Shown here in pieces: positions 16,887-62,566 of a DNA stretch of 64,000 nt (position 1 is its first letter; each line of letters opens with the position of its first letter). The stretch lies in contig NW_024881567.1 in assembly GCF_019059575.1 (NCBI RefSeq), positions 1,176,309 through 1,240,308 on the forward strand, in the 5' to 3' direction. The notes below the pieces were generated by a model, which did not search any database, was not told the origin of the DNA, and saw only the letters and a program-made list of their open reading frames with translations. Source of the DNA: Amphibalanus amphitrite. Lineage: Eukaryota; Arthropoda; Thecostraca; Balanomorpha; Balanidae. Both the position numbers and the translations under genes were made by a program.

Positions 16887-16888
16887 TA

Positions 16889-19155: not shown

Positions 19156-19157
19156 TA

Positions 19158-38170: not shown

Positions 38171-39240
38171 CAGGGGCGGCGGATTCGGGGGGGCAGGGGG
38201 GGCAGCTGCCCCCCCTGGCAAAATCGTGGGGGGGCAAAAGTATCTTTTTGCCCCCCCATAATTTGTGACAAAGCTTAGACAAGAAACCATATACCTGATG
38301 ATTTTGTTCGACCATCTGAAGATGTAACCAGATGCCCATATACTTTATCATCATATACTATCATATACTTTATCAAAAGCCTAGTAGTACGTTGGCTTTT
38401 TAAATGGCAAGCGTTCGCGTTCAATTGAAGTTTTCCTCTCTTCAACCTAGTTTTGGAGGCATTGTAAGCGTCAACGTGACGTAGCGGCAACCCCCTTCAG
38501 TGACCGCTTACAGGGGCGACGGATGCGGGGTGGCAGAGGAGGCATCGTCCCCTAAGAAACTCTTGGAGGAGGGGCAAACGTATATTCTTGCCCCTCCATA
38601 ATTTGTGCCCTAAACATGTGGAAAATTTCCATAACCTGATATTGCAGCTATGCGCTCCTACAGTTTGTTCAACGGTGCCTTTTGAATATGTGTAAATGCT
38701 AACCATTTCCGCTTTATATCATTTTTTGTCTTTTTAGATTCGATTTAGATATTTTAAGTGTGCAAGAGACGCAACTCATACCTTCAGTGGTCGTTTGCCG
38801 CTATTTTGTACCTACATAAATGCCAAATCGCTAGCGAGCGGAGACGGAAGGGCTAGACATTCGCTTGCGGGTAGTTAGGAGTAGGACTGATGAGCGCTCA
38901 TAATAAGCCACTCATCTTATTTTTTTTCAAGCGGAACAGTTTCCAGCGCATAAAATGGTAAACGCCAAGGTCGTACACATTGACCACATTGACCAATGCA
39001 CGGTATGGTATGACACCCAAAGGCCAGTCATCAGAGATCTACTTTGGGCATTCGGAGGCTTGTGTGGGGCCAGTGTAAAAACTGGATGTTCACAGTTCAG
39101 TATCCGCTTTATTTCAGTTTCACTATTAAAAAAGTAAAAATTAATGATGGAAACTCTTGAGGGTTAGGGCACTGATCATTAGTGGGCCCCCCTCTGTCTA
39201 AAGGCTGGCTATACATAGAATAAAGAGCATCAAACACGAA

Positions 39241-39394
39241 CAGTAGCGGCGGAACACCTTCAATTAAGGGGGGCGGGGGGCACTGCCGACTTTTGGTCCA
39301 ATTCTTTCCATGCAACGCCCATAGGGCTAACGTTAAAATGCCAAAATCAAAGGGGGCACGGTGCCCCGGTGCCCTCCCCGTTCCGCCGCCTATG
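39241..39394. mobile_element. 154-bp miniature hAT
   Basis: Ends CAGTAGCGGCGGAACACC and, inverted, CATAGGCGGCGGAACGGGG; perfect 8-bp duplication AACACGAA (39,233-39,240; 39,395-39,402). Inside the larger hAT. Confidence 0.85.
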
Positions 39395-40302
39395 AACACG
39401 AAAGCAAATTCTAAGACATTTGGGAAAATGAGTATGCCCCGCAGCGTCCGATAACTACCACCTTCCAGTGGGTCAAGCCAACGGGGCCCAAGTCTATAAT
39501 GGCACTTAACGATAGCACTAACCTTGTTTCACTTTTCGTTGAAGTCTGTTCCGAATGGTTTCGGCCACAGACTGGCTGCACTGAGGTCGTTTGGTATGTG
39601 CAACTGTAATTAAAGCCACCTGAGGCGCCCTGACACCAGGCTGAAGCTGGGTTGGAAATGCTTCGTCTTTGCAGATATCACTGACCACTGATTCTCGAGT
39701 GCCTGAACCGGTAATGTCGTGGCAAAATTTGGTGTGATAATTTGGACCTTACCGCAGTCAGCACACCCTAAAGCCCTAATAAAGAAACGCCCCACCCAGA
39801 GCTTCTGGATTCTCGTTCCAGTCCACCGTTCCTTCACCTCAGCCCGCCGCCGCGCTCCCTCACCCTCCGTTCCCAGCTTGACGAGCGTTTGGGCCTTAGT
39901 TAAGCCCTGCTGTAGGCTTACTGTATAAACCCATCGAGACAGCCCGTCTCGGTGAGCTTATTTGGCGAACTACTGCCTTGGGGAGGGTATCTGGCGGATC
40001 GCTGTCCCAATAGGTTTAGATGTGACCGACTGTCTCTGAATGTTTGAGCGGTCTCCTCCCGCTGTGAGTTAGTTTCAGTTGATATCTGTCTCAGAAATAC
40101 TTTTTAATGGAAGGTTAAACGGAAATCGAACGTAAAATGAACAGAGGAAACGGTAACGAGTTACCTCATTGAAGAATAGCGCTCGCCTACTTCAAAAGGT
40201 TTGGCACCGTTCTTCAACATCTGATATGCGATCGGGTTATGGCACAATTTTTCCTATTTGAGCTTTTTTCTAATACAGCAATACGAAAAGCGTTACATCG
40301 TC

Positions 40303-40563
40303 CACTGGCGGATCCAGAGAGCGGGCATTTAAAGCAAATATTAACTCCCCTCCCCCTGGCCCCTGCATCGCCCGAAATAGACAAAACGTACCTTATGTTT
40401 CCTAATAATAACACTTTTATCAGGATTTTTTTTTTTTTGCTTTATACTGTTCAGCATTATAAAGTAAGGAATCGAAATCCGAGGAGTTTTTGGATTTTGG
40501 ACACTTTTTTGGGGGGGGTATGTCCCCTACAGCGTCGAAAACGTCTTTCTGGATCCGCCTATG
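40303..40563. mobile_element. 261-bp miniature hAT
   Basis: Ends CACTGGCGGATCCAGA and, inverted, CATAGGCGGATCCAGA; target duplication ACATCGTC/ACATCATC (one mismatch). Confidence 0.8.
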
Positions 40564-40620
40564 ACATCATCTCGACTGGGATCTTGCCCCCCCACGCCAA
40601 AATCGAATCCGCCGCCACTG

Positions 40621-42976: not shown

Positions 42977-43651
42977 GTTATGATCCGTTCTATAGCCGGG
43001 ACTAATCTCTACGTCTGAGCACTGATTGGACAAGTGTTCGCTTATATATAGCATGTCCATTGTCCAGTCTTGCACCTTTACTTAAATTTGGGTTGTGCCA
43101 TGTGTAATCCTGAGAATTTTTGTTTTCAGATCTCCAGACGTCAAGCAAGTTGAATTTTTCGCAGACAATCATAAATTTTCTTTTAGCCCGAATGTTATTC
43201 TCGCACACGTAACCGTAACAATCTTTATTGAAATCTATAACGAAGTTAAAGTCTCCGCCGATGACACAATTTTCAGAATTCGTCTGTTCTAGTATGCTCT
43301 CTATTTCACTATAAAACTTTAGATCATCTTGGTTAGGACCATATATGCTTCCTAATAAGTAACTCTCCAAGCCGATCTTACATTCTACAATACGTAGTTA
43401 CCATTTCTGTTTGTGTGTTTATTTATGATCTCGTGTCCTATCCTGTTGCTTATAAGAATGAAAGATCCTCTGCTATTGTCTGTATGAAACGAGTGATGCG
43501 CTTTTCCTTTCCATAGGGTGTTAAATGCAGATATTTTTCGTTCTGTTAAATGTGTATCCTGAAGGAATATTATGTCACATTTCAAACTTCTTATAAAGTT
43601 CATTACATCTCTGCGCTTATGTTTGGACCCGAGTCCTCTTGTGAAGAACAA
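42977..43651 (-). pseudogene. LINE segment 1: APE-type endonuclease domain
   Basis: Minus strand: RGLGSKHKRRDV, DIIFLQDTHL (usual QETH has Asp for Glu), LISNRIGHEI, then after a shift YLLGSIYGPNQDDL, GGDFNFVID, LLDVWR, DYTWHNP, a shift at about 43,062, and LYISEHL...GYRTDHNMVS (the SDH-type motif reads TDH). These are the ordered motifs of the apurinic-type endonuclease that nicks target DNA. Begins close to the natural domain start. Confidence 0.87.
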
Positions 43652-43689
43652 GTTCGATCAGAGCGTTAGTACACTTACTTGTTGACAAT

Positions 43690-44221
<532 letters not shown>

Positions 44222-44347
44222 CCGCAGGGGCGGATCCAGGAATTTTCGGGAGGGGGGGGGGCGGCAAGTCGAGATAGGGGCGACCTGGCAATCCGGGGGC
44301 GCTCCATACAAAGGGGGCGCCAAACCGTCAAAATCGGGAGCTAAAAG

Positions 44348-45556
44348 CCCGCGGCGTGCTAGGGGGCGTTATCGCGGTCCCCCTCAGGTTTTTCGCAAAT
44401 ATCTGAAAAACTGCTGCGCGCAGCGCCGCCATTTTCAGCATACCTTATCATGCATCTTTTTTGCACATGTTGCAAAAATGTCTGACGCGGGTCATGGAAG
44501 GTCAGGTCACCAGGTTATGCCAAGTGACCTAGCCTAAGAAAAAGTTCAAATGCTTACCATTGCTAATGCTATACCGACCGAAGGATTGCTTTGAACCTTT
44601 CAGCGATTGATGAAAGCAACACTGTTCATGAAATGTATATCTCGGAATTTCGATATCTGTGACCTAAGGTCAGGTCAGTTGTGCGACGTCTCCATTAGGT
44701 AGGTAGGTCCATTAAGTCTTTGGGAGAAAACTGAAAAGCATCTCTTTTGGACGAGCGCCATTCTAGACAATATCAAGCATTGGGATACATATAAAATTAT
44801 CACACTGAATAAGAACATTGCACCTAGTGTGACCACTCATTATGTCCCAGAGGTCATCCCATGTCATGAAAGGTCCGCAGCAGTTTTTTTTAAATAACTT
44901 TTGATGAATTCAAGCTAGAGCGATAAAAACACCTCAGTTGTGTTCAGCTCGACGATACGCATCGACTGCTATGCAGCATGACCTTTCCCGGTCAGGTCAT
45001 GACCTTGACCTGAGGTTAAATTCTCAAAATTACCTTTCATAAGGTCAATCTTTAGTTTGTTCGACGTGTCTCGACGACAAAAACGCAATGCTGGCAAACG
45101 TAATGTCGAGACTCTCTTGAGTCAAAAGTTATTGCAGGAAAACATTGTTCGTAAAAAGGCTATTTTTAGAGTCTTTTGCCCTCTGAAGGCTAAACCGTTG
45201 ACCTGAGGTCAAATCTGAGCGCAGCTTGCAGAAACACCTTTAAAAGGGCTATCGAATGCGCTTTTCTGCGGCGCTATAGCTCTAGTGGTTTCCGAGTTAT
45301 GTGCCGCTGCTTCGAAAACGGAAAAATGTTGAAACAGGCAATATTTTACCTTTGATGACCTCTGGTGACCTGACATTCGACCTGGCCTAAAAAATGACCG
45401 TTTTGTTTTCGTCCTGTTTTTTGACGATCTTTCGAATGCCGCTTATCGCGTGTCACTACGCGGCCCAGGAGCCGAGTTAGACGAGGGAGTGTGCCTGCCC
45501 CCCCCCCCCCCTCCCGAACAGGACACGGAAAACTCAGACCACCAGCACGGCACGGG
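44348..45556. mobile_element. TTAA-type element M (degenerate relative of C)
   Basis: Left CCCGCGGCGTGCTAGGGGG, right GCACGGCACGGG followed by TTAA (45,557-45,560); the left TTAA is not intact. The interior aligns with 14,709-15,878 (TTTTTCGCAAATATCTGAAA, GTGACCTAAGGTCAGGTC). Older than C by divergence. Confidence 0.7.
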
Positions 45557-45639
45557 TTAAAAGTCGTAGATGGGCACCGCTACTCTAGCAAAAGATATTA
45601 GCAAAAAGGTGGCCTCCATTTACTGGTGCAGTCCTTCTT

Positions 45640-47290
45640 CTCCCGGTGATGCCCCCTCCTTTTTCTGGAAGCGTCTCACTTATGCTGGTATGCCTCACTT
45701 CCTGGGGGCGCCCAACCTCTGCTTGGATCGCCTAATCCATTATGTCCTCTCCGTGGCCGAGTGGATAAAAGCGCCGGAATTCGACGCTTCGCCGGAAGTG
45801 AGAGCCCGGTTCAAGCCCCGGTGCGGGCGGCCACATTTAGCTCCTACGTGTAATGGCGTGCGCGTCTGTGGCAGGGGCCGCACAGAAGCCAGGTAACGTG
45901 AGTGAGCGGAGGGGACCGTGTCCAGTCGTGAGGGCACGTTAAACGTTCGGACCAAATTCTGCCATACAACTGGAATTGCGCGATCGGGTGGTGGGGTCAG
46001 GGTCAGCACAACAAGCTATGCTTAGTGCGGGCTCTGATTCCTCAAATCCGCCCATTCAGCCATTCGGACTAAATTTATAAAAAAAAAATGGAGAGACCCA
46101 CTTTGCTTAAGTCGCCTCATTTCTTCCTTCTAAGAACGACCAATTTGCTGTAGGCGGCCCACTTATCTGGGACGCCCATCTTCTGCTAGAACTCATAGAA
46201 GTGCCCCTCTTCTTCCTGATGCGTCCCACTTCTACTACGAGTGCACCTTTTCTGTTAGGGCGCCCCTTTGCTGCTGAGGAGTCTTTTTATACTGTGAATA
46301 GGGCGGCCCTCTCCTGTTGGCTGTTGGGCGACCCCAAATTCTGCTGAAGGCGCCCCACTTCTGCCCAGCTTTTGGTGGGGGTGCCCCTCTCTTGCAGGGG
46401 GCACTTCTCTTTTGCTGGAGACGCCTCTCTTGTGGGGGCGCCCTTCCACTGCGGGGATCGTCTCTCTTCTGCCAGAGGCACCCCTTTTCTTCTTATGGGG
46501 CTCCTTTTTTTTCTGGGGCGAGGCGACCCTCTGCTGCTCGGAACGAGGCACACCTCTCCTTTTACTGGGGCACCGCCCCTCTGCTGGGGTTGCCCTTCCG
46601 CTGTCGTCAGGGGCGCCCCTCTTGGTAGAATATACTCCTTTTCTTTTTGTAATGGGGCGCCCCTCTTCTACCGGGGGCGCCCATCTGCTGCTGGGGCGTC
46701 TGTCTTCTGCCGGATATTGTCAATGGGGCGCCCATATCCTGTTTGGCGGGCCCAACCTCTGCTGGAGGCTCCCTATTTCTGATTAACTTTTGCTGTGGCG
46801 TCTCTCTTCTGCTGGGGCGCCCCTCTTCTGCTTGGGGCGCCCGTCTCCTGCTGGAGACCCCTCTCTTCTGCTGGGGCGCCCCTCTTCTGCCAGTGGCACC
46901 CATTTTCTTATTATGGGGCTCCTTTTTTGCTGGGGCGCCCAGCTGCTGTCAGGGCGCCCCTCTTCTCGGAATGGGGGCGCCTCTCTCCTTTTGCTGGGGC
47001 GTCAGTCGCTCCTCTTCAGGGGGACACGTCTCCTGCTAAGGGTGCCCTTCCGCTGCCAGGGGCGCCCCTCTTGAACAGAAGGTATTTTATATTCTTGTAA
47101 CGAGACGCCCTCTTCTGCTGGGGGCGCCCATCTGCTGCTGGGGCGACTCTCATCTGCTGGGAATAGGCAATTGGGCGTCACTCTCCTGCTTGGTGAGCCC
47201 AACTTCTGCTGGAGGCGCCCTATTCCGGCGGAACCTTTGCTGTGTCGCCGCTCTTCTACTCGGGGCGCCCTCTCTGCCGCGGGATATGGG
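45640..47290. repeat. minisatellite, monomer about GGGGCGCCCCTCTTCTGCTG
   Basis: Dozens of imperfect units of roughly 20-30 bp centred on the palindrome GGGCGCCC. Confined to the hAT at 44,225-47,359. Interrupted by a SINE. Long open frames on both strands are a by-product of the GC-rich repeat. Confidence 0.85.
45749..46089 (+). mobile_element. tRNA-derived SINE
   Basis: Starts with a type-II tRNA-like head: A box TGGCCGAGTGGA and B box GGTTCAAGCCC at 45,753-45,820, followed by about 250 bp of body and an A10 tail at 46,079-46,088. The head resembles a Leu/Ser tRNA. It lies within the minisatellite, which resumes after the tail. Target duplication not clear. Confidence 0.7.
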
Positions 47291-47371
47291 CGCCTTTTTC
47301 GGATGGCGGGGGGGGGGGGCGGCCGCCCCCGTCGCCCCCCCCCCCTGGATCCGCGCCTGTAACAAGGAGCC

Positions 47372-48078
47372 AACTTGTAGATTTGGTTTACAGTGTACTT
47401 CAAAGAGACCTCGAAGGTGTGCGCCGCTGGGCCCACATGTGGAAATTAAAACTTAACCCTGCGAAGTGTAAGGCGTTTACTATGACGCTCAAGGCAAAAC
47501 CGGTAGAAGCAACATTTTTCACTGATCAGGCAGCATTGGAACACGTGGACACAATTAGAGATCTAGGTGTTAATACTAGATACGAAACTTACATTTGGAC
47601 CTCAGGTGCATCACACTGTCGTGAAAGCCAATATAGGGCGCTCGGAATTCTAATAAGTTCATTTCAAGTGGCTAATCCGAGAGGTTACCTAAAATCATCG
47701 GCAGTCCTTACGTCCTATTTTGCTCACGTTCGTTCCGTGTTGGAGCATTGCAGCGTCATATGGGGAGGGGCGGCCGCCATACACAAGGACCGCATCGAAC
47801 GAACCCAACACAAGTTTCTTATTTGGTTGAGCGCCCATTCAAAGAAGCAGTCAGCTTCGCTGTCGTACTCTGAGTTACTTAAACATTTTAACATCTGTTC
47901 TTTGGCTGCACGCAGAGTACAACACGCTATAATGTTCTTGCGCAGTGTGATGACTGGTAGGATCAGTTCGTCTTTTCTGTTACGATCCTTCTCTTTCGAG
48001 GTACAGGTCTCGCGGGTTTTAGCGGTAGGTTTTGCACCTAGAAAATTTAGTGTACTTCAGGCTATATCTTCGTCGTCT
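47372..48078 (+). pseudogene. non-LTR reverse transcriptase, thumb/C-terminal fragment
   Basis: Open frame with LVDLVYSVLQRDLEGVRRWA, then HMWKLKLNPAKCKAFTM (the post-YADD LN..KC motif), IRDLGV, SVIWGGAAAIHKDRIERTQH and a C-terminus ending SSSS. This is the region after RT motif C in Jockey/CR1/RTE-like LINEs. The catalytic part is missing, removed or separated by the hAT on the left. Confidence 0.75.
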
Positions 48079-48356
48079 TAAAGGGACATGTTCATGTCTA
48101 ACATGGGGAATGGAGTTGAGATAGCATTTATACTCGTTATGTGCTAAAACCTCATAATCCGGACAGGGGTGGATTTTTTTGTTTTTCATTGGGGTTGCAC
48201 AGCCCTGAAAGGGCGCCCAAAGCGGTTCCGAGGGGAGCAATGGTCCGAAAGTGGGCGCTTGCAGGGGCGGTCGTAAACTTGGCGTGGGGGGGGGGGGGCG
48301 AATTGGCAAAGGGGCCCTGTCGACCCTCGGGGGGAGGGGGCGGTGTTTTAGCTTAA

Positions 48357-48860
48357 CCCGCGTACCGCCGGGGGGGGCGGATATCCGCCCCTCCTGAGGT
48401 TTTTCGTAAATAACGGAAAACCGCGAAATTTCGCATGACTATTTCCCCTATCAATTTTACATACTATGTGCAAGTTTGAACCGGCCTATCTTTCAAGATC
48501 AAGTCACCAGGTCACTTCGAATGACCCGACCTCAAATCACTTTTTTGAAACTTTGTCACCGTGTCAGAGTTATAGTAGATGACGGAGTCCTTTGCAAGTT
48601 GCAGGATGTAATGAGGTCATTGGTAGCTACAATTTGTTTATCTCTTTTTTATACCGATGACCTAAGTTTAGGTTAAGTTCTTGGCCTCCCCATTATAAGT
48701 CAAGGGGAAAAATCAATTGCCTTATTTTTCCCCCTAAAACGCGTCGGAATGGCCTAAAATACCATGAATGACTTGATATAAGATCAATCTTGACTACCTT
48801 TAGGCCTTTTTTTGCTCTTGGGAAACTGTAAAGTCATGTGAAGTCATCAAAGGACACCGA
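48357..48860 (+). mobile_element. TTAA-type element N, 5' part
   Basis: TTAA (48,353-48,356) then CCCGCGTACCGCCGGGG, cap CGGATATCCG between G and C tracts, then TTTTTCGTAAATAACGGAAA and AGGTCACTTCGAATGACC-like sequence as in element C. No 3' terminus found; sequence passes into the minisatellite. Confidence 0.6.
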
Positions 48861-51300
48861 TTTTTTGCAAATAACTCCTTACAGGAACGAGATAATGCCG
48901 CGCAGATGGTCTCATGCATCGCTCCTCGGAGATCGGCATGACTTGTCTGCGTTGGGCCTAAGAGAACCGAACCGATTGGGATGCTTGAAAGCCGCCTTGA
49001 GGCCCTTTGAAACCCGTAAGAGTCCACCTGAGGATTATTTGCGGCACGTTGAGGACGGCAAGGAGTACATACCTATATAGGCTAGTATGGATTCCTAAGA
49101 AGCCAGTATAGAGCCCTAAGAAGTGGGTGGGGGGAGCAAAAAGTATAACTTTTGGTCCTTCAGACTTCAGAGGCCTATAGGTATAGCGTTTGGAGAGACC
49201 TGCGTGGGGCATTAACGACCCACGTGGGATCTCCAAGGATCGACGTGGGGTCATCAGATGCCGGTGGGGCTCTCATCTGACGGAATGGGGATGGTCCTTA
49301 GAGAGCGGAAAGGAGCCATAAAAGAACAGTTTTGCCCCTCAGGAGCAGACAAGAGTCTTCTGACACCCAAGGGCGCACACAAGGGGGGGCACACGGGCCC
49401 GTGCCCCCCCCCCCATTCGAGTTGGGGGGCCCAACTCGAAGGAAGGGGCCCATTTGAGCTCAAATGGGCCTCTAACTAATCCTTAGACCACCGAAGACCG
49501 TGTACAAAGGGCCCTCAAATGGCCTTAAAGGGCCCTCAGATGGTCTCCAAAAGCCCTCAGATGGCCTCGAAGAGCCCTCAGTTAGCGTCATAGGGCCCTC
49601 ATCTGGTGTCAAAGGGCCCTTAGATGGTGTCAAGGGGCCCTCAGATGGCCTTAAGGAGCCCTCAGATGACCTCAAAGGACTCTCAGATGGCCTTAAAGGG
49701 CCCTCAGATAGCCTCAAAGGGCCCTCAGCTAACGTCAAACGGACGTCAGAAGGCCTTAAAGGGTGTCAAAGGTCCCTGAGCTGGCGTCAGAGGGCCATGC
49801 CCTTGCGTCAAACGGCTCTCCGAAGGCTCTAAAGGGTCCTTTGCTGGTGACAGAGGGCCCCCAGCTGGCGCCAAATGGCCATCAGAAGGTCTCAAACGGT
49901 CCTCAGCTGGCGTCAAGCGGCCCTCAAAAAGCCTCAAGGGGCCCTTAGAAAGCCTCAAGGGGCCCTTAGAAGACCTCAAGGGCCCTCAGAAGACCTTAAA
50001 GAGCGTCAAAGGGCCTTGAGCTAGCGTGAGGGGCCCCCCCAGCTAATGCCAGAGGGCCCTGAGCTAGCGTCAAACTTAAAGTGCCCTTAGCTGGTGTCAG
50101 AGGGCCCCAGTTGGTGTCAGAGGGTCATCCATTGGCGTCTAATGGCCATCAGAAGGCCCAAAAACACGATCCTCAGCTGGCGTCCAACGGTTCTCAGCTG
50201 ACGTCAAGAGGCCCTCAAAAGGGTTCAAAGGCCCCTCGACTGCTCAAAGGGCCCTTAGAAGGCCTCAATGGGAACTCAAGAGACGTTAAACGGCCCTCAA
50301 AAGGCTTGAAAAGGCCCTCTGCTGATGGCAAAGGGCTCGCACCTGAGTCAATAAGAGCCTTGTCAAAAAAACGGACCTGAGAAACCTTGCCGGCCCTGGT
50401 TATCTGCGGGACTCCTACACTTACCTGAGTGGCCCCCGTTTACTGAGGGGCCCTGGTTATTGATGGGGTCCCTGGTTACTTAAGGGGCGCCTGGTTACCA
50501 GAGGGGCCCATGGTTACCTGGTGGGCCCCTGATCAATTGAAAACCCCTGGTCATCTGAAACGCCCCTGATTACCTAAAGGGTCCCTAATCACTTGGATTC
50601 AGTGACATAGCAAGGGAGCGAGGGGGTACGTGCCCGTTCTCGGGTTTAGGGTTCCTTCGAAACCGAGGGGCCCTGCGGCGCCAGTTGGTAGCAGAGGGTT
50701 CGCGCTGGCCGCACTTCAACTCGGAAGGACACCACAGGGCTTGTGGGGGCACGTTATTGGCTCCTATGTAGCCACAATTATCTTCATAAAGGCCCAATGC
50801 CGGTTTCTGAGAGACCTCGCCGGCCGCTCAGGGCCCTAGTAACGGCCAACGAAGGATTGGCTGCTATGGCTCCACATCCGTCTGTGATAGACACACGGTC
50901 CACACCAGTGTTTCTAAAGGCACCCACAACGGCAACTGCGAGGCCCCTCGCCCCACCTCCAAGGGACCCCCCACCAGCGCATCTTAAGGGCCTACATCGG
51001 CGGCTCTGAGAGTCCCCACACCGACGCCTCTGAGGGCCACGTACCAGTGACTCTGAGGGCCTCTTACCAGCCTCCGAGTGTCCTTGCCAGCCTATGACGG
51101 GCCACTTTCCACTTGCAGGCCATTTTGCAGGGCCACACACATGCCAATGATGGCCCCACCAGTGTCTCTAAGCCCTAAGACCCCGCAACGGCGCCTGTGA
51201 GGACCCAACACCAGCGCATCTGACGGCCTTTCACTGGCACCTCTGAGCGCGCCACACACCGGTGACTCTGAGGAGCTCGCTCGCTTCGCTCGCTCGTAAA
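48860..51300. repeat. minisatellite, monomer about GGGCCCTCAGATGGCCTCAA
   Basis: Best preserved at 49,500-50,370 (period about 20-32). Sub-blocks: GGGGCCCTGGTTACCTGA type at 50,393-50,590 and CTCTGAGGGCC type at 50,800-51,290. Ends at a palindromic CTCGCTCGCTTCGCTCGCTC (51,279-51,298), the same motif that ends the repeat at 4,690. Contains a G/C-tract hairpin at about 49,384-49,415. Confidence 0.8.
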
Positions 51301-51780
51301 ATATCATGTAAATTAGGCATTAGTGTACATTAGGCACGCTCCTCGGGCATTAATGATACATTTGCTTGCCGATTTTCCACACTTTCTCATGCAAAGACCG
51401 TTTTAAAGAGACCCGTCTGCCAGTGAGACTGGACCCACCGTGCCTCCCTCCTCCCATCGAAAGGTCCTGGATACAGCCTTGCCTGAGCTGACCCCGGGCC
51501 CCCGGGTGACTCGCGGGCCCGGGGTCCGCGAAAAAAAACATGCTAAAAAAAACATGCTTGCGTAAAAATATATATGTTTTGAAAATTAAGCTGGTACCGA
51601 AATAATTGTTTTACCTACCATGCATTGACAAACCAATTGCTCAAGCTTCAAACCAACCGAAATATAGCCCCGTGGGCCGTATTTTTTTTTGGGGGGGGGG
51701 GGGCCTGCGGCATGGGGGGGCTCAGTTCGAAGGTCGTGCCCCCCCCCCCATTCAAAAATCCTGTGTGCGCGCCTGCTGAC
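51301..51780. other. G/C-tract hairpins and degenerate hAT-like ends
   Basis: Contains GGTCCTGGATACAGCCTTG (51,460-51,480) and AAAATCCTGTGTGCGCGCCT (about 51,756-51,776), both similar to hAT right termini, and a G-tract/C-tract pair at 51,691-51,750. No complete element resolved. Confidence 0.35.
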
Positions 51781-53480
51781 ACCAGTATGAGGCCCTTATA
51801 TAAGTCCGGCGTTAGATCATTTAAGGCTAGTATTGACCCTCTTAAACCGGGTGAGAGCTCGCGCAGCAGTTTGGATCTTAGAACTCCAACGTGGGTCCTA
51901 CAAGACCTGGCTGAGCCATCAGAGGCCAATGCGGGGTCATCAAAGGCCAGTTCGGAACCTCTGAGGTGATGTGAGCCCTTGGAGACCAGCATTGGGCCTT
52001 GACAGGTCAATGTGGGACTCCTTGACTGGTATGGGCCCTAAGAGATATGTGTGGTGTCAATGCTACCCACAATAGACACAAATAACGACATGGGGTCTCA
52101 GAGACTAGCAGAGGCCCTTAAAGACCAGCATGGGCCAAAAAGATCGACAGGGGCCCTCCGAGACCGGCAGAGACTAAAAAGATAGCATGAGGCGCCCATG
52201 ATGCCATCAGAAGCCTCAGAAGCCCATGATGCCTCAGAAGCCCGGGCTCTCAAGGACCGAAATGGAACTATCAGAGACCAGTGTGGGCCCCATGGCAGCA
52301 GACATGAGCCCTCAGAAACCGATATGACTTCGATATGGCACTAGTCCATAATGGGCTCGCTGCGACAAGATAACGGCCCTCAAGTTCCGAAATTCCGACA
52401 TGGGGACCAACAGAGACTGACAGAGAACCTTGGAGGACGGCATGAAACGCCAAAAGTTCTTCCTTGGACCACAGAGACTAAAGATGGGACTCTCAGAGCC
52501 TGTTGTTGGGTCCTCTGAGGCCTGTTTCGGGCTACCAGGGTCCGGTTCGGTCCATCAAATGCCGGTCATGCCCCTCAAAAGCCGGTTTGGGACCCTGAGC
52601 GGCCAGTACTGGCCCTCCAAGGCCAGTTGGTCATCAGAGGCCAGCCCAATATGGGCCCTTACAGGCCAGTGTGGAGCTCTCAGAGGTCAATGTTCCTCAG
52701 AGCCCAGTGCGAGATACCCACAGGAGTGGGTTCATCAGAATTCAGAGGCTAGTGTGGGTCCCTCCAAGGAGCCCGGTTCGGCGCCCTCAGAGGTCGGTGT
52801 AAGGCCCTCAAAGGCCAGTATTGGTTCTCAAAGACCAGTATGGGCCAGAATGGGCCATCAGAGGTCAATGTGGGCCCTAAGAGGCCGGCAACGGGCCTTC
52901 AGAAGCCAGTACGGGCCCTCAGAAGTGCCCAAGGGTCAATCTTTATCTGCCAGAGACAGAAATTGGGCCATCCGAGGCCGGTGTTGGGCCCTAGCAGGTC
53001 AGTTTGGGCCATAAGAGACCAATTTGGACCCTATAAAAACCAGCGTGGGTCCGTACAGGCCAGTGTGGGGCCCTCGGAGACCAGTACAGAGCCTTCAAAG
53101 GGCAGTTTGGAACCACCAGAGGCCGACGTGGGCCCTCAGATGCCGGTGTGGTATCTTACAGGCCAGCGTGGAGCCCTCAGAAGACAGAGGTCAGTGTGGG
53201 GTCCTAAAAGACCAGCATGGGTCGGTGTTGGACCCCAGAGGTCAGCAGAGGGCCCTCAAAGGCCAGTATGGGCCCTCAGAGGCCAATGTGGACCTGTAGA
53301 GACCGGCATCGGGCCTTCAGAAGTCAGTCGAGCCCTCGGGGGCACCCAAAGGCCAGTCTTGGGCCCCCAGAAACAAAAATGAGGCCTTGAGAGGCGTGGA
53401 CCCTCAGAAACCGGTTTGGGAGCCCTCGAGACCAGTACAGGGCTCTCAAGGGCCAGTGGAGGGCATGGCCCTGATGCCCC
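51781..53480. repeat. minisatellite, monomer about GGGCCCTCAGAGGCCAGTGT
   Basis: Imperfect units of 25-35 bp on the theme CCCTCAGAGGCCAGTNTGGG for about 1.7 kb. Followed by (CCCCCA)n and CA-rich DNA to 53,545. Confidence 0.85.
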
Positions 53481-53852
53481 GTGCGACCGCCACTGGGCCC
53501 CACCCCCACCCCCACCCACACACATACACACGCGCACACGCACACACGCATATAATATTATCATTTTGGTACTTGGCTAGGTAGAGCAATGTCTCAATGA
53601 TGACCAGTCACAAATTACATTTCAGCTGGGCGGTATGTTTACGGACGCCATTTAATTGCGTCCCAGAAAAGCTATTTCTGGCACCTAAAAGCTGACTCGC
53701 CCCAAAATTGGTCCTCAGCACCTATTTGGTGGATACCAGCACCAATCATGGAAAATGACCTTAATTAGCTGTTTCTGGCACCTATTCATCGGTACGCCTT
53801 ACTCTTTTTTCTGAATCTGGCACCTAAATGCTGAGCGTAGCACCAATCTAGT

Positions 53853-55689
53853 CAGGGGCGGATCCAAGGGGGGGGGTCACATGGGTCATGCCCCCCCCCC
53901 CTTGAGGCCCGGGGGCCCAAAGACCTGCCAGGGGCACCACCGGCCTATCAGGGGTATCACAGTCCTGACAGGGGCACCACAGGACCGCCAGGGGCACCAC
54001 AGGCCTAGCAGGGACACCACGGGCCTGGTGCCCCTGGGCCCTGACAGGACTGTAACGCCCCTGACAAGCCCGAAGTGTCCCCGGTAGGCACGTGATGCCC
54101 CTGACAGGCCTGAGGCGCCCCTGCAAGGGCGGTGGTGCCCCTGGCAGGCCTGTGGTGTCCATGGCAGGCCTGTGGTGCCCTTGCTAGGCCTCTGGTGCCC
54201 CTGACAGGCTTGTAATGCCCCTGGAAGGACTGTGGTGCCCCTGGGCCCTGACAAGCCTGAGGTGCCCCTGACAGGCCAGTGGTGCCCTTGCTAGGCCTGT
54301 GGTGCCCCTGGCAGGCCTCTGGTGCCCCTGACAGGCTTGCGGTGCCCTTGGAAGGACTGTGGTGTCCCTGGGCCCTGACAAGCCTGAGGTGCCCCTGACA
54401 GGCCCGTGGTGCCCTTGTTAGGCCTGTGGTGCCCCTGGCAGGCCTCTGGTGCCCTTGCTAGGCCGCTGGTGCCCCTGGCAGGCCTCTGGTGTCTTTGCTA
54501 GGCCGCTGGTACCCCTGCGCCCGGAGAGGACTGGTGCCCCTGAAAAGTCTGAAGTGCCCCTCGGCAGGCCCGTGGTGCCCCTGACAGGCCCAAGGTGCCC
54601 CTGCGAGGCCGGTGGTGCCCCTGGCAGACCTCTGGTGCCCCTGGCAGGTCTGTGGTGCCCCTGGCAGGTCTGTGGTGCCCCTGGCAGGTCTGTGGCGCCC
54701 CTGGCAGACCTGTGTTGACTGGTGCCCCTGCTAGGTCGCTGGTGCCCCTCACAGACCTGTGGTGCCCCTGGGCCTTGACAAGCCTGAGATGCCTGGCTAT
54801 GACAGGCTCGTGGTGCCCCTGATAGACCAGTGGTGCCCTTGCTAGGCCTGTAGTGCCCCTGGCAGGCCTCTGGTGCCCCTGCTACCCCTGCGCCCGGAGA
54901 GGACTATGGTTCCCCTGAAAAGCCTGAAGTGCCTCTCGACAGGCCCGTGGTGCCCCTGGCCCCTGACAGGCCCAAGTTACCCCTGCGAGGTCGGTGGTGC
55001 TCCTGGCAGACCTCTGGTGCCCCTTGCAGGTCTGTGGTGCCCCTGGCAGGCCTGTGTTGACTGGTGCCCCTGCTAGGCCGCTGGTGCCCCTCACAGGCCT
55101 GCGGTGCCCCTGGAAGGGCTGTGGTGCCCCTGCCCCTAGGGGTGCTCATGGGCCCAACAGGTCCGTTGTGCCCCTGACAGGCCTGTCGTGTATACTTGCT
55201 AGACCTTTGGTGCCCCTACTTCCTGGCAGGCCTGTGGTGCCCCTGGCGGGCCTGTGGCGCCCCTACAAGGCCGTAGGTGCCCCTGAAAGGTTTGTGGTGT
55301 CCCTGGAAGGACTTTGGTGCCCCTGACAAGCCTGAAGTGTCAAGGACAGACCCTTTAGACGCCAGGGTCAAGTTCGTCGGACTGACAACGATTTGCTTAC
55401 CTGATAACGTTCCTGGTAAGTACTCACTACTCAGCGTCCACAACATATATACACATAGCATCTATGCACATAGCACATTCATATATACTTGCTTATAATT
55501 GGTAAATGTGGTTGTGGCTAAGAGTTAAGATACTGACTAAAAATAAAAAATAAAAAGAAAAAAACTGAAAATGGGGGCACCACCAAAATGAAGTGGACGA
55601 AATCCGTTGAGTTTTTAATTTTGGGTATAGGTAGGGGCACCACTTCGATTCATGACCCTCCCCTTGGAGTTTTCCTGGATCCGCCCCTG
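53853..55689. mobile_element. hAT element carrying GGTGCCCCTG minisatellite
   Basis: Ends CAGGGGCGGATCCAAGG and, inverted, CAGGGGCGGATCCAGG; perfect 8-bp duplication AATCTAGT (53,845-53,852; 55,690-55,697). 1,837 bp, nearly all minisatellite. Nested in the 11-kb hAT. Confidence 0.9.
53930..55340. repeat. minisatellite, monomer about GGTGCCCCTGGCAGGCCTGT
   Basis: About 1.4 kb of 20-bp-class units (GGTGCCCCTGACAGGCCTGT variants), sometimes with GCTAGGCC or GGAAGGACT. The complement CAGGGGCACC resembles the hAT terminus CAGGGGCGGATCC. Confined to the hAT at 53,853-55,689. Confidence 0.9.
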
Positions 55690-55697
55690 AATCTAGT

Positions 55698-56814
55698 AGA
55701 AAAATGAACTACTGGCTGGTAGAATCATGTTGTTCTGGTATAATGACCCCTGGAGTCTAGCCTAAAGGTTGCCAGTGCAGCTACACTCTAAGACAGCCCC
55801 GTAGTGATCTCAGCATTGTATATGACGTTTAAGTAAGCAAATAATATTGATTTGTTTGAAAAAAACAATGTCATTTAAATATTTAAAAGTACTTATTTGT
55901 AATGGTTCAAGGGAAACATTTTTGTGAGTAATTGTCTCGATTTTGACCATTAAAACGGGTGTTGTATTTTTTGACGTCATCAAATAGCTCCAAAAAAGAA
56001 ATGTAATGTTTTCATTCCGTTCAAGGCCGCTGAAGAAACGCGGGATCTTGCGTGGGACATTGTACGTTGTTTGCCGCGCAGAGTTGTGCCGTGGTTGTGC
56101 CTTTTTTCATCCGTTTCTTACTTATGTCATATGTGTGCATGAAGCTTTGATTTTGTTTTTGGTTATTGTGTGGCCGGTCAGTCAAACGCCCCTGTAGAAA
56201 CCGGATGCTGCGTTTGATCGAGATGGAGTCAGACGATGATTGCAGAAAGCTAATAGTATTGAAAAGAGGGCCGGTTGCGTGGCATGTCTGTTCAGAGTTG
56301 ACATTTTGCTTTACTCCAGTTTATGACCTGAGAGCCTGGCTGGAAGTGACGGATCCAAACTTTTCACGTTAAAATGGCTGAGGGTGCAATAATCTCTAGT
56401 CTCTACATAGCGGGCTGGTATAGGAGCGTCTTGCTATGCTGCACCATAGCTGGCTAGTGATTCTCTTTTGGCTAGAAATGGCATTAATCATTATCTCCAC
56501 TGGCGAAAATGGCACTTGACATCACCGAATGCACCGTTCATGTTGTTAGGATACATAAAATCAGGAAGATTACGCGAATTAGGTAGGCAAACGTGGAATA
56601 AAATAGGTGCTGGATGTTTTGGTTTTGGTGCTGAATCAGCAAACAGCAAATACGGAGTTCAACTAGACGATCTGGCAACTTTAGGCTGTGTGGAAGCAAT
56701 TAGGTGCCAGATTCAGATATTAGGGTCGAATAAGCATTTTGGGGCTGATCAGCAATTAGGTGCCAGAAACAGTTTTTTAGGGACCAGAAACAAATATTCC
56801 CCTATGTTTACTTG
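55698..56814. other. no gene recognised
   Basis: AT-rich. Contains copies of a TTTCTGGCACCTA / TAGGTGCCAGAAA motif (also 53,670-53,830 on the other strand and 56,704-56,775), suggesting a diverged local repeat that brackets the inner hAT. No domain recognised in the short frames. Confidence 0.3.
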
Positions 56815-58700
56815 TGGGGCGGCAGCCGCACCTACATCTGAAGAGCATGCAGCCTGTACCTACACTTAAGGGGCGGCACGTGTACTTGTGGGGGCGGCAA
56901 CTACACATAAGGGGGCGGTACTTACACTCTAGGGACGGAACCTTCATTTGAGGGGGCGGCATCCACACTTTAGGATACTTAAAGAGGCGGCACCTACATT
57001 TGCTGGGGTCGTCAACTACACCTGAGGGGGCAGCACCTATGTACATTCGAGGGGGCGGCACCTACATTCGAGCGGGTGATAGCTACCTTTTAGGGGGCGG
57101 CATTTACATTTGAGGTGACAGCATTTACACTTTAGGGGGCGGCACCTGCATTTTAGGGGCGGCACTCACACTTGACAGGGCGGCACATACATTTTATAGG
57201 CGGCACCCACACATGAGGGGGCGGCACCTATCTACATTTGAAGGGAAGGCACATACACTTAAGAGGGCGGCACCTGCATTTTAACCCGCGCCCTGGTGGG
57301 GTCTGTTTATAACGCGACCTGGTGGGGGGGGGGGGCTATTTTTTGCCCCCCCCCTCGTATCTCCGAAACTACTGGACGGATCCGCAAAATTCAAACGGCG
57401 TTCGAAAGGCCTGTCAGATTTGTCGAAGGAAACCAAATTTCATTGACCTCGGGGTCACCGATGACGTCACAGGTCAGGTCAAAGATGAAATGTTTCACCG
57501 TTCACGGGTCTTCTAGGGAATGCAATATAACACCGAGGAAAACGCATTTTGTCGAGAATCAGCGGTAGGGCGTCAGTTGCCTAGTAGATATGTTGCTACT
57601 AGAGGTCACTGGCAATACCAGGTCAGGTCACAGGTCAGGTCACCAAGGGTCACAGGTCAGGTCACATGAGCCCAAGTTTACTAAGGTTGTGTGATACATG
57701 TTTTATGGCCAATTTTCATTTCCAACTCAATGCTGTTGGTTATACGACTATCAGGTACGGCTTAGGTCACTTTCTGGTGAAGTTCAGGTCAAGGTCAGGT
57801 CAAGGTCAGGCCAAAAAAGGTCAAATTTTAAAGTTGATAGTTTTGCATAAAATGGGTATTGATTCGATGCAGCTCGTCACGGGGAGTCTAATGGTGGTCT
57901 TTGTTTTGCGCTACGGGGTCTAGAATTGCTAAAAATTGAGTTTGAAAATTTGACGTCATCAATTTTGAACAGTTTTTTCGCTATAACTTCGCCAAAAAAA
58001 GAGGTATCAATCTCAAATTTGGTATGTGGATGGAAGGCGGTAAGGACTATCACATATATTCCGGTTTTTGCGAAATTCAAAAAACTTTTTGGATTTTTCG
58101 ATTATTATATCCAAAAAATCTATTTTTTGATTTTTGGGGGTCCAAATCCAAAAATTTCAAAAATCCGAGATAGCAGTTTTGTAGCCCTGTCCAATCTACA
58201 GCTTTTATGTCTTTATCATTTTTCTGTATTTGCAAAGCTATAGGCCTGACAGCTCTTCCCGCGAAACCCTTTTTGGGTCGAAAACGGCAGAACATGACGT
58301 CACTCTGACGTCATTTCCGGCCAACCTATCATAGCCTTTGGAAAAATTTTTGGTCACAATGTGTAAAATTGATGTCCGGGAGGGTACTGAAAGTTTGGTG
58401 ACGATCGGCGCAGTGGTTCTGGAGATATATCGAAAAGTCTAGAGGGGGGGGGGGGCAAAAAATAGCCCCCCCCCCCACCAGGTCGCGGGTTAAGGGGTGG
58501 CACCTACCTTAAGGGGCGGCAACTACATTGAGGGGGCGGCAACTACACCTCAGGGGGCGGCACCTACATTCGAGGGGCGGCACCTACACTTAAAGGGGCG
58601 GTTCCTACACTTAAAGGGGCGGCACCTACACTTAAAGGGGCGGCACCTACACTTAAAGGGGCGGCACCTACATTTGAGGAGACGGCACCTACACTTGAGA
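56815..58700. repeat. minisatellite, monomer about GGGGCGGCACCTACACTT, split by a TTAA element
   Basis: Array at 56,815-57,280 and 58,494-58,700, with element P between. The most regular units are at 58,570-58,690 (18-20 bp, nearly identical), suggesting recent expansion. Confidence 0.88.
57285..58489. mobile_element. TTAA-flanked element P inside minisatellite
   Basis: TTAA at 57,281-57,284 and 58,490-58,493. Left CCCGCGCCCTGGTGGGG, right inverted CCCGCGACCTGGTGGGG. Cap GGCTATTTTTTGCC on the left and GGCAAAAAATAGCC on the right. AGGTCA clusters at 57,470, 57,618-57,663 and 57,785-57,812. 1,205 bp, non-coding. Confidence 0.88.
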
Positions 58701-58783
58701 GTTGAGGGGTGACCCTTATTACATTATGGGTGGAGCTCTTGAAGATGGTGCGAAGTCAACAGGCGGCATTGAGTTTTGGTGTG

Positions 58784-58999
58784 GTACACTCGGGGGCAGA
58801 TTGATGTTCCACCACTTCCTACCCATCGGGCTCTCATGGCTCAGCACTGGCTGCTGCCAGTGGCAGCACTGGCAGCACTGGCACTGGCAGGCAGTGCTGA
58901 GCAGTGCTGAGGGCAGGCAACACTGACAGCAGCCAGTGCTGAGCCATGGGAGCCCGATGGGTAGGGATTGGTGGAACATCAATCTGCCCCCGAGTGTAC
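58784..58999. repeat. 73-bp-arm inverted repeat
   Basis: Arms 58,784-58,856 and 58,927-58,999, only a few mismatches. They run from GTACACTCGGGGGCAGATTG to CAGCACTGGCTGCTG. The 70-bp loop is made of short GGCAGCACT/CAGTGCTGAG repeats. No target duplication seen. Confidence 0.85.
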
Positions 59000-59708
59000 A
59001 TGGTTATGGGGCGGCACACTTTGAGTCGCCCGCCGGTTTACTTCAATTTTGAAGTTGGGGTTGCACATTGCACAAATTGATGTTGGGGTTGCACAATTCA
59101 AAGTTGGGGTTGCACGTGCAACCCCAACTTGATATAAAAATCCAACCCTGAATCCGGAGCCATTCGACTCAAAAATATAAAGTGACTGCGCTAGAGAGCA
59201 ATTTCGATGGTCTTTACCAGATCGCCAAGGTCTTTACCCGATATGACCAGAGGCAGTGGCGCAGAGGATTTCGTTTCGGGGGGGGTCATCGCTTCCAAAG
59301 CGGGCCCCCTAGTGTGCGGGCCCCCACCCATTTTTCAGAATCTCTCCATATTTCATACGCATTCTGGGGCGGGCCCCCTTTACCTGCACGATAACCCTGA
59401 GCGAGTTTGAATCAGAAACTTTGCATAGAACAGTAGCTCGGTAATCACCCGGTCTTCACTTTTACGCAAATTGACTACGACAGAAATATGTTACTATGAC
59501 GTATGACTTCGTATCTTTCGAGTCCGATATGAGCCCCAATTCCGCAATATGCATAGCATATTATATGCAATCGGAACTGTTGCCTGCTTCTGTCGCACAA
59601 GATTTAAAAGTAGTCCCATGTGCCTGTCCTAAGTCATCTATTGGCTGCTGTAGTAGATTGTGCTTTTATTCTTCTTCATTACGTGAATTCGCTCGTAAGA
59701 AGTTTTAA

Positions 59709-59811
59709 CCCTCGCCGGCACAGGGGGGAGGGGTTGATGCAACCTCCTAAGGTTTTTTTTCGCGAAGAACTCGCGTAAAAAAGCGGCTGATCGCGACGTA
59801 ACTTCCATAGT
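59709..59811 (+). mobile_element. TTAA-type element Q, 5' terminal fragment
   Basis: TTAA (59,705-59,708), then CCCTCGCCGGCACAGGGG, cap TTGATGCAA, then AAGCGGCTGATCGCGACG. Breaks directly into Helitron sequence. Confidence 0.65.
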
Positions 59812-60758
59812 GCGCTGAAATTCGCGCAACTTATAGAACAAGGATGGGTAACGTGCCTGTGAAGAGTCACAGCTCGATCGGGCCGGTGGTGAGCACATGG
59901 CGCGTGCTCAAAAAGTGCAAATTCGCGTCATAGACTTTACATGCATAAATCGGCTTGCAAAAATGGGCGACAATGGCTCAACTTGCCCGACACGGGTCCG
60001 GTCCCCGTGCAGTATCTCGGTAACCGTGGGTCCGATCGGCACGAGGAACACAGTATCGTGCATGAGAATCGAACGGGCTATCGAATGGTGTGCGGTGCAG
60101 GGATGGCACGCGCCACGTGCACCCGTGAGGGCACTTATGCTTGAAAAATTGACGTTTTGGACGGATTTTGGACTTAATGCTATTTTTGGGTGACTGTCAG
60201 ACGGAGCGGGTTCAAACAACGCTTGTTGGCAAGAGAAATGTACCTACCGCCTCTCATGGGAAAATTGTGAAAAGCTAATTGATCAAAAACAAGGTGGAAC
60301 AAATTGCTGGAGAAAATAGCATTTGCTTATGACTTACTTAATTACAGGGGTTTTGCTACATAACCTGGTATGTTTGACAATTGAAATGGGCATAGATTGG
60401 AAGAGCATTCAATTGTGACCAAGGTCCAATCATCGCTTTTGCATGACGAGCAACAATATTCTTAAGAATATAAATGTTTCAAACCTCTACATAGTAATTC
60501 ATCGATGGCTTTCACTCTTCAATAACCTACGCCAACCTATGTCATGAAATACACTTGGCATGTTCTATAGTAGAACGCATGGTTATTATCAGACACGAGC
60601 ACCTCGATGCGATGGATATTTTTTCCCAAAACCAAAATGCTTAGCCGTCAAAAGGCAATCGACCGTAATGGATCAAACCCACAGACACAAGACCAACCAA
60701 ACGCCCACCGATCGAAAATACCCCTTATTCGCGTTGCGAAGCAAGCGGGTCACCCTAG
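59812..60758 (+). mobile_element. Helitron copy 3, 5'-truncated
   Basis: Matches the Helitron pair at 25,678-27,809 from GCGCTGAAATTCGCGCAAC to the terminal CACCCTAG. The 3' hairpin is mutated (GCGTTGCGAAGCAAGCGGG). CTAG is followed by C, where the minisatellite begins. Confidence 0.75.
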
Positions 60759-60764
60759 CGGGCC

Positions 60765-61530
60765 CCATTCACCGGGGGCTCGGGCCCTATCCACATGGGG
60801 GACCAAGCCCTATCCATACGGGGGCCCGGGCCACGTTCACCTGGGCTCCGGGCCTCGTCCACCCGGGGCTCCGGGGCCCGCCCACCAGGGGGCCCGGGCC
60901 CCATCCAGCCGGGGGCCCGGGCCCCGTCCACCCGGGGCCTGGGGTCCGTACTCCCGGGGGCCCGGACCCATCCATCGGGGGGCCCTGGCACATCTACCCG
61001 GGGGGGCGTGCCCCATCCACCTAAGGGGCCCGGGCCCGTTCTCCCGGGGCCCGGGCCCCATCCACCCGGGGGCCTGTGCCCTATCCACCCAGGGGCCCGT
61101 GCCCTATCCACCCAGGGGCCCGGGCCCGTTCTCCCGGGGCCGGGCCCCATCCAACCGGGGGTCCGGCCCCGTCCACCCGGGGCTCAGGGCCGTTCTCCCG
61201 GGGGCCCGGGCCCCATCCAGCCGGGGGCCCGGGCCCCTCCACCCAGGGGCCCGGGCCCGCTCTCCCGGAGCCTCGGGCCCCATCCACCCGAGGGGCCTGG
61301 ACCCTTTCTCGCGGGACCCGGGGGTCGGGCCCCGTCCCCGGGGCCCGTTCTCCCGGTGGCTCGGATCCATCCACCGGGGCCCCATCCGCCGGGGGGCCCG
61401 GGCCCTATCCACCCGGGGGCCCGGACCCATCTACAGGGGGCCCGGGTCCCATCCACCCAGGGGCCGGGCCCGTTCTCCTGGGGGCCCGGGCCCTGTCCAC
61501 CTGGGGCCCCAGGCCGACCCTCACCCGAGG
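60765..61530. repeat. minisatellite, monomer about GGGCCCGGGCCCCATCCACC
   Basis: About 0.77 kb of 20-30-bp units with nested palindromes GGGCCC, CCCGGG and GGGCCCGGGCCC. Starts immediately after the Helitron terminus. Open frames in all six directions (up to 416 codons) reflect lack of A/T, not coding. Confidence 0.9.
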
Positions 61531-61577
61531 TGTCGCAGTGGGCATTTCTCGAAGCGGGCTCGTCCGATTAGATTAGG

Positions 61578-61578
<1 letters not shown>

Positions 61579-61642
<64 letters not shown>

Positions 61643-61677
61643 TCTCTCTCTCCTCTCTCTCCTCTTCTCTCTCTCCC

Positions 61678-61766
<89 letters not shown>

Positions 61767-61772
61767 TCTCTC
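61579..61772. repeat. (TC)n microsatellite
   Basis: About 195 bp of TC with a few CC, CTTC and GCTC interruptions. Next to the right end of the hAT. Confidence 0.95.
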
Positions 61773-61850
61773 GAGCGGGCCCCTGACAGAAATTTCGGGG
61801 GGGTCAGCTGACCCTTTGACCCCCACCCTGGCTGCGCCACTGACCAGAGG

Positions 61851-62566
61851 TGTATGACGTCAGCAAGAAAAAGCCTAGATTTCAAGTTAACGGGAACGGA
61901 TTCGCCTAACAGGACTGGTCTTTTTTAAAAAATTGCGTTCAAGATTGTCCGCAAGCAGAATGTTGAGACAACACGGGCAGATGGAGCGCGAATCGTCGTA
62001 AAGCTTTTCAGAATGCTTGCTTCTGATTGGGTAGTATTCTTTGAGGTTTAAAGCTGGAGAACTCAATAACGCTCTCCTCATACATTTTGCGCGTTTTTGT
62101 TTGCTGGTTGTCAAGGCAAACAAAACAAAAACCAAGATACATACGGCCTTGCAAGATACCAATAAGAAACCCAAAACCCTTTTGCGCGTTTGTGTTTTAT
62201 TTTTTCCAGTAGCTTGCTGTCAAGCAAAGCCGTTCAACCGAAGCCGTTGTGATGAAGCAAAGCTGTTTTCTAGTGAAACTGTAAGTTACCAGTGAGTATT
62301 CGCAATGTTGTGATTTAAAAAAAAGTAAATGACTGAAAGGGATCCAAATTATTTCTGAAATAAAGCAACAGTTCAGGTCTAGGTCATTTTGGCAGGCAGG
62401 GCAGGCAGGCAGGCAGCCAAAATTTCTGAAATAAAGCACCAGTTCAGGTCTAGGTCATTTTGGCAGGCAGGCACGGCACGGCATGGTGGTACGGCACGGC
62501 ACACCAAATGGTTCAAATTCAACAGGTGTATGGTAGTTTGATCTATCATTGGCTTTGAAAATGAAA
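61851..62566. other. no gene recognised; short direct duplication
   Basis: A 55-60-bp direct repeat (TTTCTGAAATAAAGCANCAG, then TTCAGGTCTAGGTCATTTTG) at about 62,350-62,395 and 62,425-62,465, separated by (GGCA)n and followed by (CGGCA)n. Two AATAAA-like signals lie in the copies. Confidence 0.45.

Follow-up and report, generated by a model that had tools for sequence, protein, structure and literature searches.

Between positions 44225 and 61842 of a 64,000-nucleotide window of Amphibalanus amphitrite DNA (the whole stretch analysed, which forms the end of contig NW_024881567.1, here C70, in a genome of 808 Mb) lie several hAT transposable elements, most of them nested in one another. These elements very likely belong to non-autonomous hAT families that consist mostly of GC-rich minisatellite and were dispersed by hAT transposition. 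The arrays sit at the same place inside target site duplications (TSDs) in separate copies, and exact marks within arrays are linked to marks at element ends; we therefore take hAT transposition, rather than local expansion, to be the main disperser, a case best made for the family designated C. At least seven distinguishable hAT families with arrays (A to F and I) are present in this one genome. Minisatellites are usually regarded as local expansions, and here the array of each family would have arisen a single time, to be spread afterwards by cut-and-paste elements. The window elements and their parts are as follows (strand where assigned; supporting evidence in parentheses).

44225..47359, plus strand: hAT element A, ends CAGGGGCGGATCC / CAGGCGCGGATCC (18 further loci)
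45745..46087: SINE (short interspersed nuclear element)-like insertion in the window copy of A, tRNA-like head by eye (other A loci skip these positions; no Rfam match)
46100..47290: A array, about 60 degenerate 19-20-bp GGGGCGCCCC-type units (Tandem Repeats Finder, TRF; monomer fit)
48164..59150, plus strand: hAT element B with nested elements, CAGGGGTGGATTT ends, TSD AATCCGGA (end and TSD scan)
48262..53495, plus strand: hAT element F in B, ends CAGGGGCGGTCG / CAGTGGCGGTCG, flanks decayed (related to L022:973-3553)
within 48262..53495: F array, degenerate, ~21-bp GGGCCCTCAGAGGCCAGTGTG units (monomer fit)
49368..51775, plus strand: hAT element E in F, ends CAAGGGCGCACACA / CAGGCGCGCACACA, TSD CTGACACC (relatives in L013 and L018)
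49500..50340: E array, 21-bp GGGCCCTCAGATGGCCTCAAA units (TRF, monomer fit)
53853..55689, plus strand: hAT element C, CAGGGGCGGATCC at both ends, TSD AATCTAGT (four more copies)
53925..55340: C array of 20-bp GGTGCCCCTGGCAGGCCTGT units, its main block holding about 63 (a few units at the left are inverted)
56815..57278: B array, left part, 21-bp GGGGCGGCACCTACACTTA units (TRF, monomer fit)
57281..58493: TTAA-flanked MITE (miniature inverted-repeat transposable element), TTAACCCGCG...CGCGGGTTAA, with poly-G/C, interrupting the B array (direct reading of the sequence)
58493..58705: B array, right part (TRF)
59048..59132: short GGGGTTGCAC array by the right end of B (a single unarrayed copy by the left end, at 48189)
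59254..61842, plus strand: hAT element D, CAGTGGCGCAG ends, TSD ACCAGAGG (five further copies, 97-99% identity)
60759..61509: D array, 22-23-bp GGGCCCGGGCCCCATCCACCC units (TRF, monomer fit, copy comparison)

In the window, B, C, D and E are each bounded by short inverted ends with a perfect 8-bp TSD, and the A copy has its ends and a disturbed TSD. Among the 18 other A loci (part of a set of fetched loci, prefixed L, that are mostly A or D copies), both ends were found in 13, with a perfect TSD in 12 of these. All five further D copies have perfect TSDs, each different (6/6 with the window), and the four further C copies have four other perfect TSDs (5/5 with the window). A relative of F (L022:973-3553) carries the perfect TSD GGTAGGTA, and 8-bp TSDs were also seen at element H (L024) and at element I (L019, L025 and L027). 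The terminal inverted repeats (TIRs) begin CA(G), and the two ends of an element differ at 0-3 positions over their first 14 bp. The original prediction, that hAT ends with 8-bp duplications enclose GC-rich arrays, thus describes B, C, D and E well, and A by its other sites (12/13), but the "11-kb element" that it also named is not a single hAT. This is a nest, with E inside F inside B and with C and the TTAA MITE also within B; the GGGCCCTCAGA arrays assigned to it belong to E and F, and the GGGGCGGCACC array to B. Nor does every hAT have an array: in the one at 38171-40620 (TSD GTAGCGAA), TRF detected none and the local-repeat score was weak.

Some of these nests have themselves moved. Where A sits in element I, the same inner duplication, GGCGCCAA, occurs at L025 and L027, and at L019 the A/I junction falls at the same point with the first A bases altered; this common inner junction, combined with three different outer duplications at L019, L025 and L027, indicates that the A-in-I nest moved as one. 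Similarly, the left F/B junction (48164-48262 in the window) falls at the same point in L064 and L065, and the B and F nest probably moved as a unit as well.

The arrays travel with these elements. For A, the array was matched in 17 of the 18 other loci, in pieces mostly 93-98% identical; in L023 there was no match to it within the stretch covered. L023 does contain a 20-bp GCCGCGGAGGCACGTGC array at 51-838, but no hAT ends were noticed around it in the stretch covered. In all five further D copies, which are 97-99% identical, the array measures 766-791 bp, and in C the window element and its four copies carry the array at the same place inside their TSDs. Genome-wide, exact marks of C numbered 714 for the right-end 32-mer, 543 for the array and 488 for the left end, with 0 for the reversed controls (exact marks overlook diverged copies, and early candidate counts of 2894, 2751, 1197 and 85 are not copy numbers). 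We then compared 67 C array marks from contigs C1-C70, among the matches listed, with end marks within 15 kb on the same strand: 32 had both ends, 30 the right end only, 3 the left only and 2 neither. At least one end mark thus lies near 65 of the 67, and the remaining 2/67 is an upper bound for free C arrays in the sample because exact marks are lost by divergence. Among the matches listed, 48 of 100 C right marks had an array mark within 1 kb. For D (contigs C1-C306, again among the matches listed), 30 of 32 right marks had a left mark and 30 of 100 left marks had a right mark; the latter proportion is low because the left mark sits in a segment common to another repeat. A ~0.97-kb repeat that occurs twice at 25777-27809 is about 80% alike to the D interior (59812-60758) and stops at the start of the D array. 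At about 1.3 kb for each of the 543 marks, the C minisatellite would amount to ~0.7 Mb genome-wide.

The proposal that hATs seed minisatellites is thereby supported, best for C, whose arrays in the sample compared are not commonly found without hAT ends. The same figures bear on the idea that hAT ends captured minisatellites already present in the genome, by transposing around or into them and taking them along. Some architectures would suit such capture, as A lies inside the array-like element I, the TTAA MITE inside the B array, and a 905-bp hAT inside the A array at L013. However, with C array marks so seldom away from C ends in that sample and with different monomers in different families, we regard capture as very improbable.

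GC-rich arrays with units of 19-23 bp were detected by TRF in A, B, C, D and E. With a cyclic-monomer fit, unit-to-consensus identity was 73-83% in A-F, vs. 59-64% for shuffled sequence. Element I, about 0.36 kb long, consists largely of GGGGCGCC-type units (fit 74% vs. 63% shuffled). The monomers had been described as private to each element, and different families do mostly differ, but E resembles F, and A resembles I. Across 44225-61842, the CpG observed/expected ratio of the arrays measured was 0.22-0.59, vs. 0.68-1.10 in non-array parts, as if the arrays had been methylated.

Copies of an element are about 93-99% alike, while units within an array are only 73-83% identical to their consensus; the arrays are therefore older than the spread of the present copies, by which time they had already decayed, as expected if a founder gained its array and was then copied. 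Since then, the arrays have drifted slowly, by whole units in aligned copies. Five aligned C copies differ by 4-16 substitutions per pair over about 1,265-1,285 array positions, with array indels of at least 10 bp measuring 20, 20, 20 and 40 bp and none outside. The D array shows a single such indel, of 23 bp, in six copies, and the A array two, of 59 and 20 bp, in nine (the window and the 8 of 18 loci with near-full-length copies). Outside the arrays of C, D and A, changes of this size are confined to a CT tract, a poly-C tract and 10-bp changes. The (CT)n tract of D (61580-61772) is far more variable between copies than the D minisatellite.

Array length also varies between copies, a point that the original prediction had proposed to check. 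Over 30 D copies including the window, the array span has its mode at 845 bp, with 16 copies at 844-846 and 24 within 775-848. Spans of 775-777 (three copies), 868-869 (three) and 983 bp correspond to -3, +1 and +6 units of 23 bp; those of 802, 806, 834, 1244 and 1333 bp are not all neat 23-bp steps. For C, a right mark lay no more than 15 kb from 57 of 62 left marks and, once 15 distances over 2 kb (probably copies with insertions) were excluded, the left-to-right distance was 1274-1874 bp over 42 copies (window 1749). Tested for a 20-bp step, the distance from the left end to the array gave p = 5e-4 over all copies but 0.12 over distinct values. Contig C1910, whose ungapped blocks are 97.8-100% identical, showed no array indel above 2 bp, but is possibly redundant and so says little on differences between individuals. 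With hundreds of independent copies of a single array, the genome offers a natural experiment on minisatellite mutation.

A candidate source of transposase was found among the 149 matches to PF05699 in the genome. The gene, here T, is present in three copies (L059+L051, L060 and L061) with 98-100% protein identity and open frames of 879-898 amino acids, combining DUF4371 (PF14291) with Dimer_Tnp_hAT (PF05699); the closest other protein, among the 52 of 2142 candidates scored, is 42% identical. Two of the three copies have a right end in ...TGGATCCGCCCCTG, and among 13 further transposase 3' flanks this sequence occurred exactly in one, L051. Transposase loci L040-L044 yielded no end pair with a TSD, and at L045 there was just one pair, of 253 bp, lying next to the gene. 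Judging from its right end, T may mobilise C in trans. T also carries a 30-bp GC-rich minisatellite of its own, in 406-bp higher-order repeats that run into the open reading frame (ORF) as 10-residue repeats; these 406-bp blocks resemble duplicated exons, with a GTAGGT donor-like site seen by eye (L059+L051, L060, L061).

Such a gene invites the reading that the arrays are relics of the repeat-bearing 5' region of a transposase gene, left behind after deletion of the transposase. Besides the minisatellite entering the T ORF, a 21-bp array further upstream of one T copy, perhaps outside T, has a unit like those of I and E (p = 0.01-0.02). Against this, the T 30-bp unit has no detectable similarity to any non-autonomous monomer compared (none at p < 0.02), and we consider a relic origin quite unlikely. 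As a candidate parent of the other monomers, the T unit was set aside, no similarity having been found.

Several points qualify, or weigh against, dispersal of array-bodied hAT families as we describe it, or its details. For the transposase, the T right end past its first 15 nt is like the C right end (p = 0.006 vs. shuffles) and not like the A left end (p = 0.73), but by G/C runs alone the left ends of C and E are equally alike (p = 0.002), a warning on such end scores. The left end of T did not turn up in the two joined stretches searched, 10.6 and 9.5 kb long, and for A the sole tie to T is the common 14-bp end. Turning to the ends, a scan of the window and loci for CA...TG ends that mismatch at no more than 4 of 14 bp and are flanked by a perfect 8-bp duplication returned 35 pairs. 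Of eleven control dinucleotides, eight yielded 0-3 and the others, AG, CC and GG, 9, 12 and 15 (probably through repeats supplied by the arrays); the excess of CA...TG pairs is partly by design and the pairs are not independent, since most loci had been chosen as copies of A or D, and some of the 35 resemble chance matches within arrays. A different perfect TSD for each copy is stronger evidence than this count. As for the arrays, the interiors of A and D beyond the array are partly other repeats, and H (L024, TSD AGAAGAGG), tried as a 22-bp array family and repetitive by eye, was rejected with a fit of 63% vs. 62% shuffled. The C left-to-right distances show no 20-bp quantisation (p = 0.9), so that part of the C length variation is not in whole units. 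Finally, no array-less ancestor was found, so the first duplications were not seen.

How the arrays arose is more conjectural. In the founder of each family, slippage, probably while the gap left by excision was being repaired, would have turned a short GC-rich stretch into tandem copies, and the array would then have come to fill the element; slippage in abortive gap repair following excision has been proposed for the Medicago truncatula element MtPH-A6-4, the closest precedent (PMC2213677). Better established is what followed, when array-bearing elements were copied to many sites with fresh 8-bp duplications and the arrays then changed slowly, with whole-unit gain and loss in aligned copies. 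For family C, the transposase would have been supplied in trans by the rare DUF4371/hAT-dimer element T, given the likeness of their right ends.

The seed of an array may plausibly have been subterminal. That monomers echo the terminus did not hold up: against the terminal 25 bp, own monomers gave p = 0.10-0.45 in all five elements, no better than shuffled sequence and with some foreign monomers scoring higher, and we rejected the monomers as echoes of the terminal inverted repeats. Against 200 bp, own monomers gave p = 0.003 for A, C and E, 0.013 for B and 0.27 for D, the best matches for A, C and E lying in the array itself or at its edge. For 5 of 9 arrays, the subterminal stretch contains the own core in unarrayed form (0.72 expected by summing shuffles; single p = 0.04-0.17), and in an 8-mer version all five elements had own cores no more than 200 bp from their ends.

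These cores, together with units of 19-23 bp in A-F (about two helical turns), would fit the arrays being multiplied subterminal binding sites, kept under selection for aiding recognition or pairing of the ends by the transposase, a role proposed for the tandem repeats of Galileo. Elsewhere in the window, the two 168-bp inverted ends of a Tc1-like element contain tandem repeats of ~21 bp, and in Galileo THAP domains bind sites within tandem repeats (PMC3688188). However, the cross-family control is unclean: other arrays' cores occurred in subterminal stretches in 24 of 72 comparisons (5 of these from one short array within B), and B 8-mers match A ends 7 times. No conserved position block was found within the units of A, B, D, E or F (C, p = 0.04 uncorrected), the terminal echo is not significant, and the arrays are mostly internal, in one block. 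Hence the original suggestion that subterminal binding repeats expanded into arrays is no more than suggestive: the subterminal echo is weak and not family-specific, and five of six families have no clearly conserved block. Binding arrays under selection seem to us unlikely. The putative partnership with T makes the binding-site idea directly testable. Even more doubtful is a broader version, in which hAT and Tc1-like (16878-19166) transposases drove parallel growth of arrays of ~20-23-bp units as multimer platforms, with array length selected; if true, GC-rich minisatellites would be a by-product of selected array length.

Tandem repeats within DNA transposons are known from PIF/Harbinger elements (PMC2213677), foldbacks (PMC4079207, PMC3688188) and several MITEs (PMC9659126). 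MtPH-A6-4, a PIF/Harbinger element, has 2 to 35 tandem repeats that are tied to the element and at the extremes nearly fill the space from TIR to TIR (PMC2213677), and here too the repeat lies inside the TIRs and its unit number varies between copies. It differs in superfamily, in its 3-bp TSD (8 bp here) and in involving one subfamily vs. several families. Tetris, with its TIR-220 repeats, in Drosophila virilis is likewise non-autonomous, with internal tandem repeats, alleles one repeat apart and a role as a source of arrays, but is a foldback whose long TIRs contain AT-rich units of ~220 bp; its repeats also occur satellite-like without element ends (PMC4079207), which is rare for C. Galileo, of the P superfamily, is a further DNA transposon with tandem repeats, placed in long TIRs with demonstrated transposase binding sites (PMC3688188), whereas the present arrays are known from sequence, and those of A, D and E are internal, in one block, with only a few units of C in opposite orientation, at the left. 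Hermes is itself a hAT whose subterminal repeats are bound by the BED domains of its transposase, but these are short motifs placed precisely near the ends, with no kilobase array (PMC10368747). Finally, miDNA4 in Xenopus tropicalis and (GTCY)n in Lepidoptera are non-autonomous elements that spread tandem repeats, the former being Tc1/mariner and the latter a microsatellite (PMC9659126); here, several hAT families of mostly 1.8-2.8 kb coexist. A (2.7-2.8 kb), C (1.8 kb) and D (2.5-2.6 kb) exceed the few hundred bp of a MITE, a size that element I would fit at about 0.36 kb without its nested A. Set against these precedents, the present case differs in superfamily (hAT), in its GC-rich units of 19-23 bp and in how many families show such arrays at once. 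The literature searched yielded no report of comparable array-bearing hATs (coverage being far from complete) and no match to CAGGGGCGGATCC (coverage lacking most subscription papers), and Rfam gave no match at gathering scores across 43000-62500 of the window.

Tandem repeats were also seen in two elements of other kinds. The Tc1/mariner-like element at 16878-19166 of the window has an open transposase frame at 17486-18616 (DDE_3), and its 168-bp inverted ends, 94% complementary, contain the tandem repeats of about 21 bp, which are AT-rich. At L021:2407-3836, a non-hAT inverted-repeat element with CCCAGTAAACATGCC ends and TA flanks carries arrays of a palindromic 11-bp unit, GCCGACGTCGG, and GC-rich arrays are therefore not confined to hATs.

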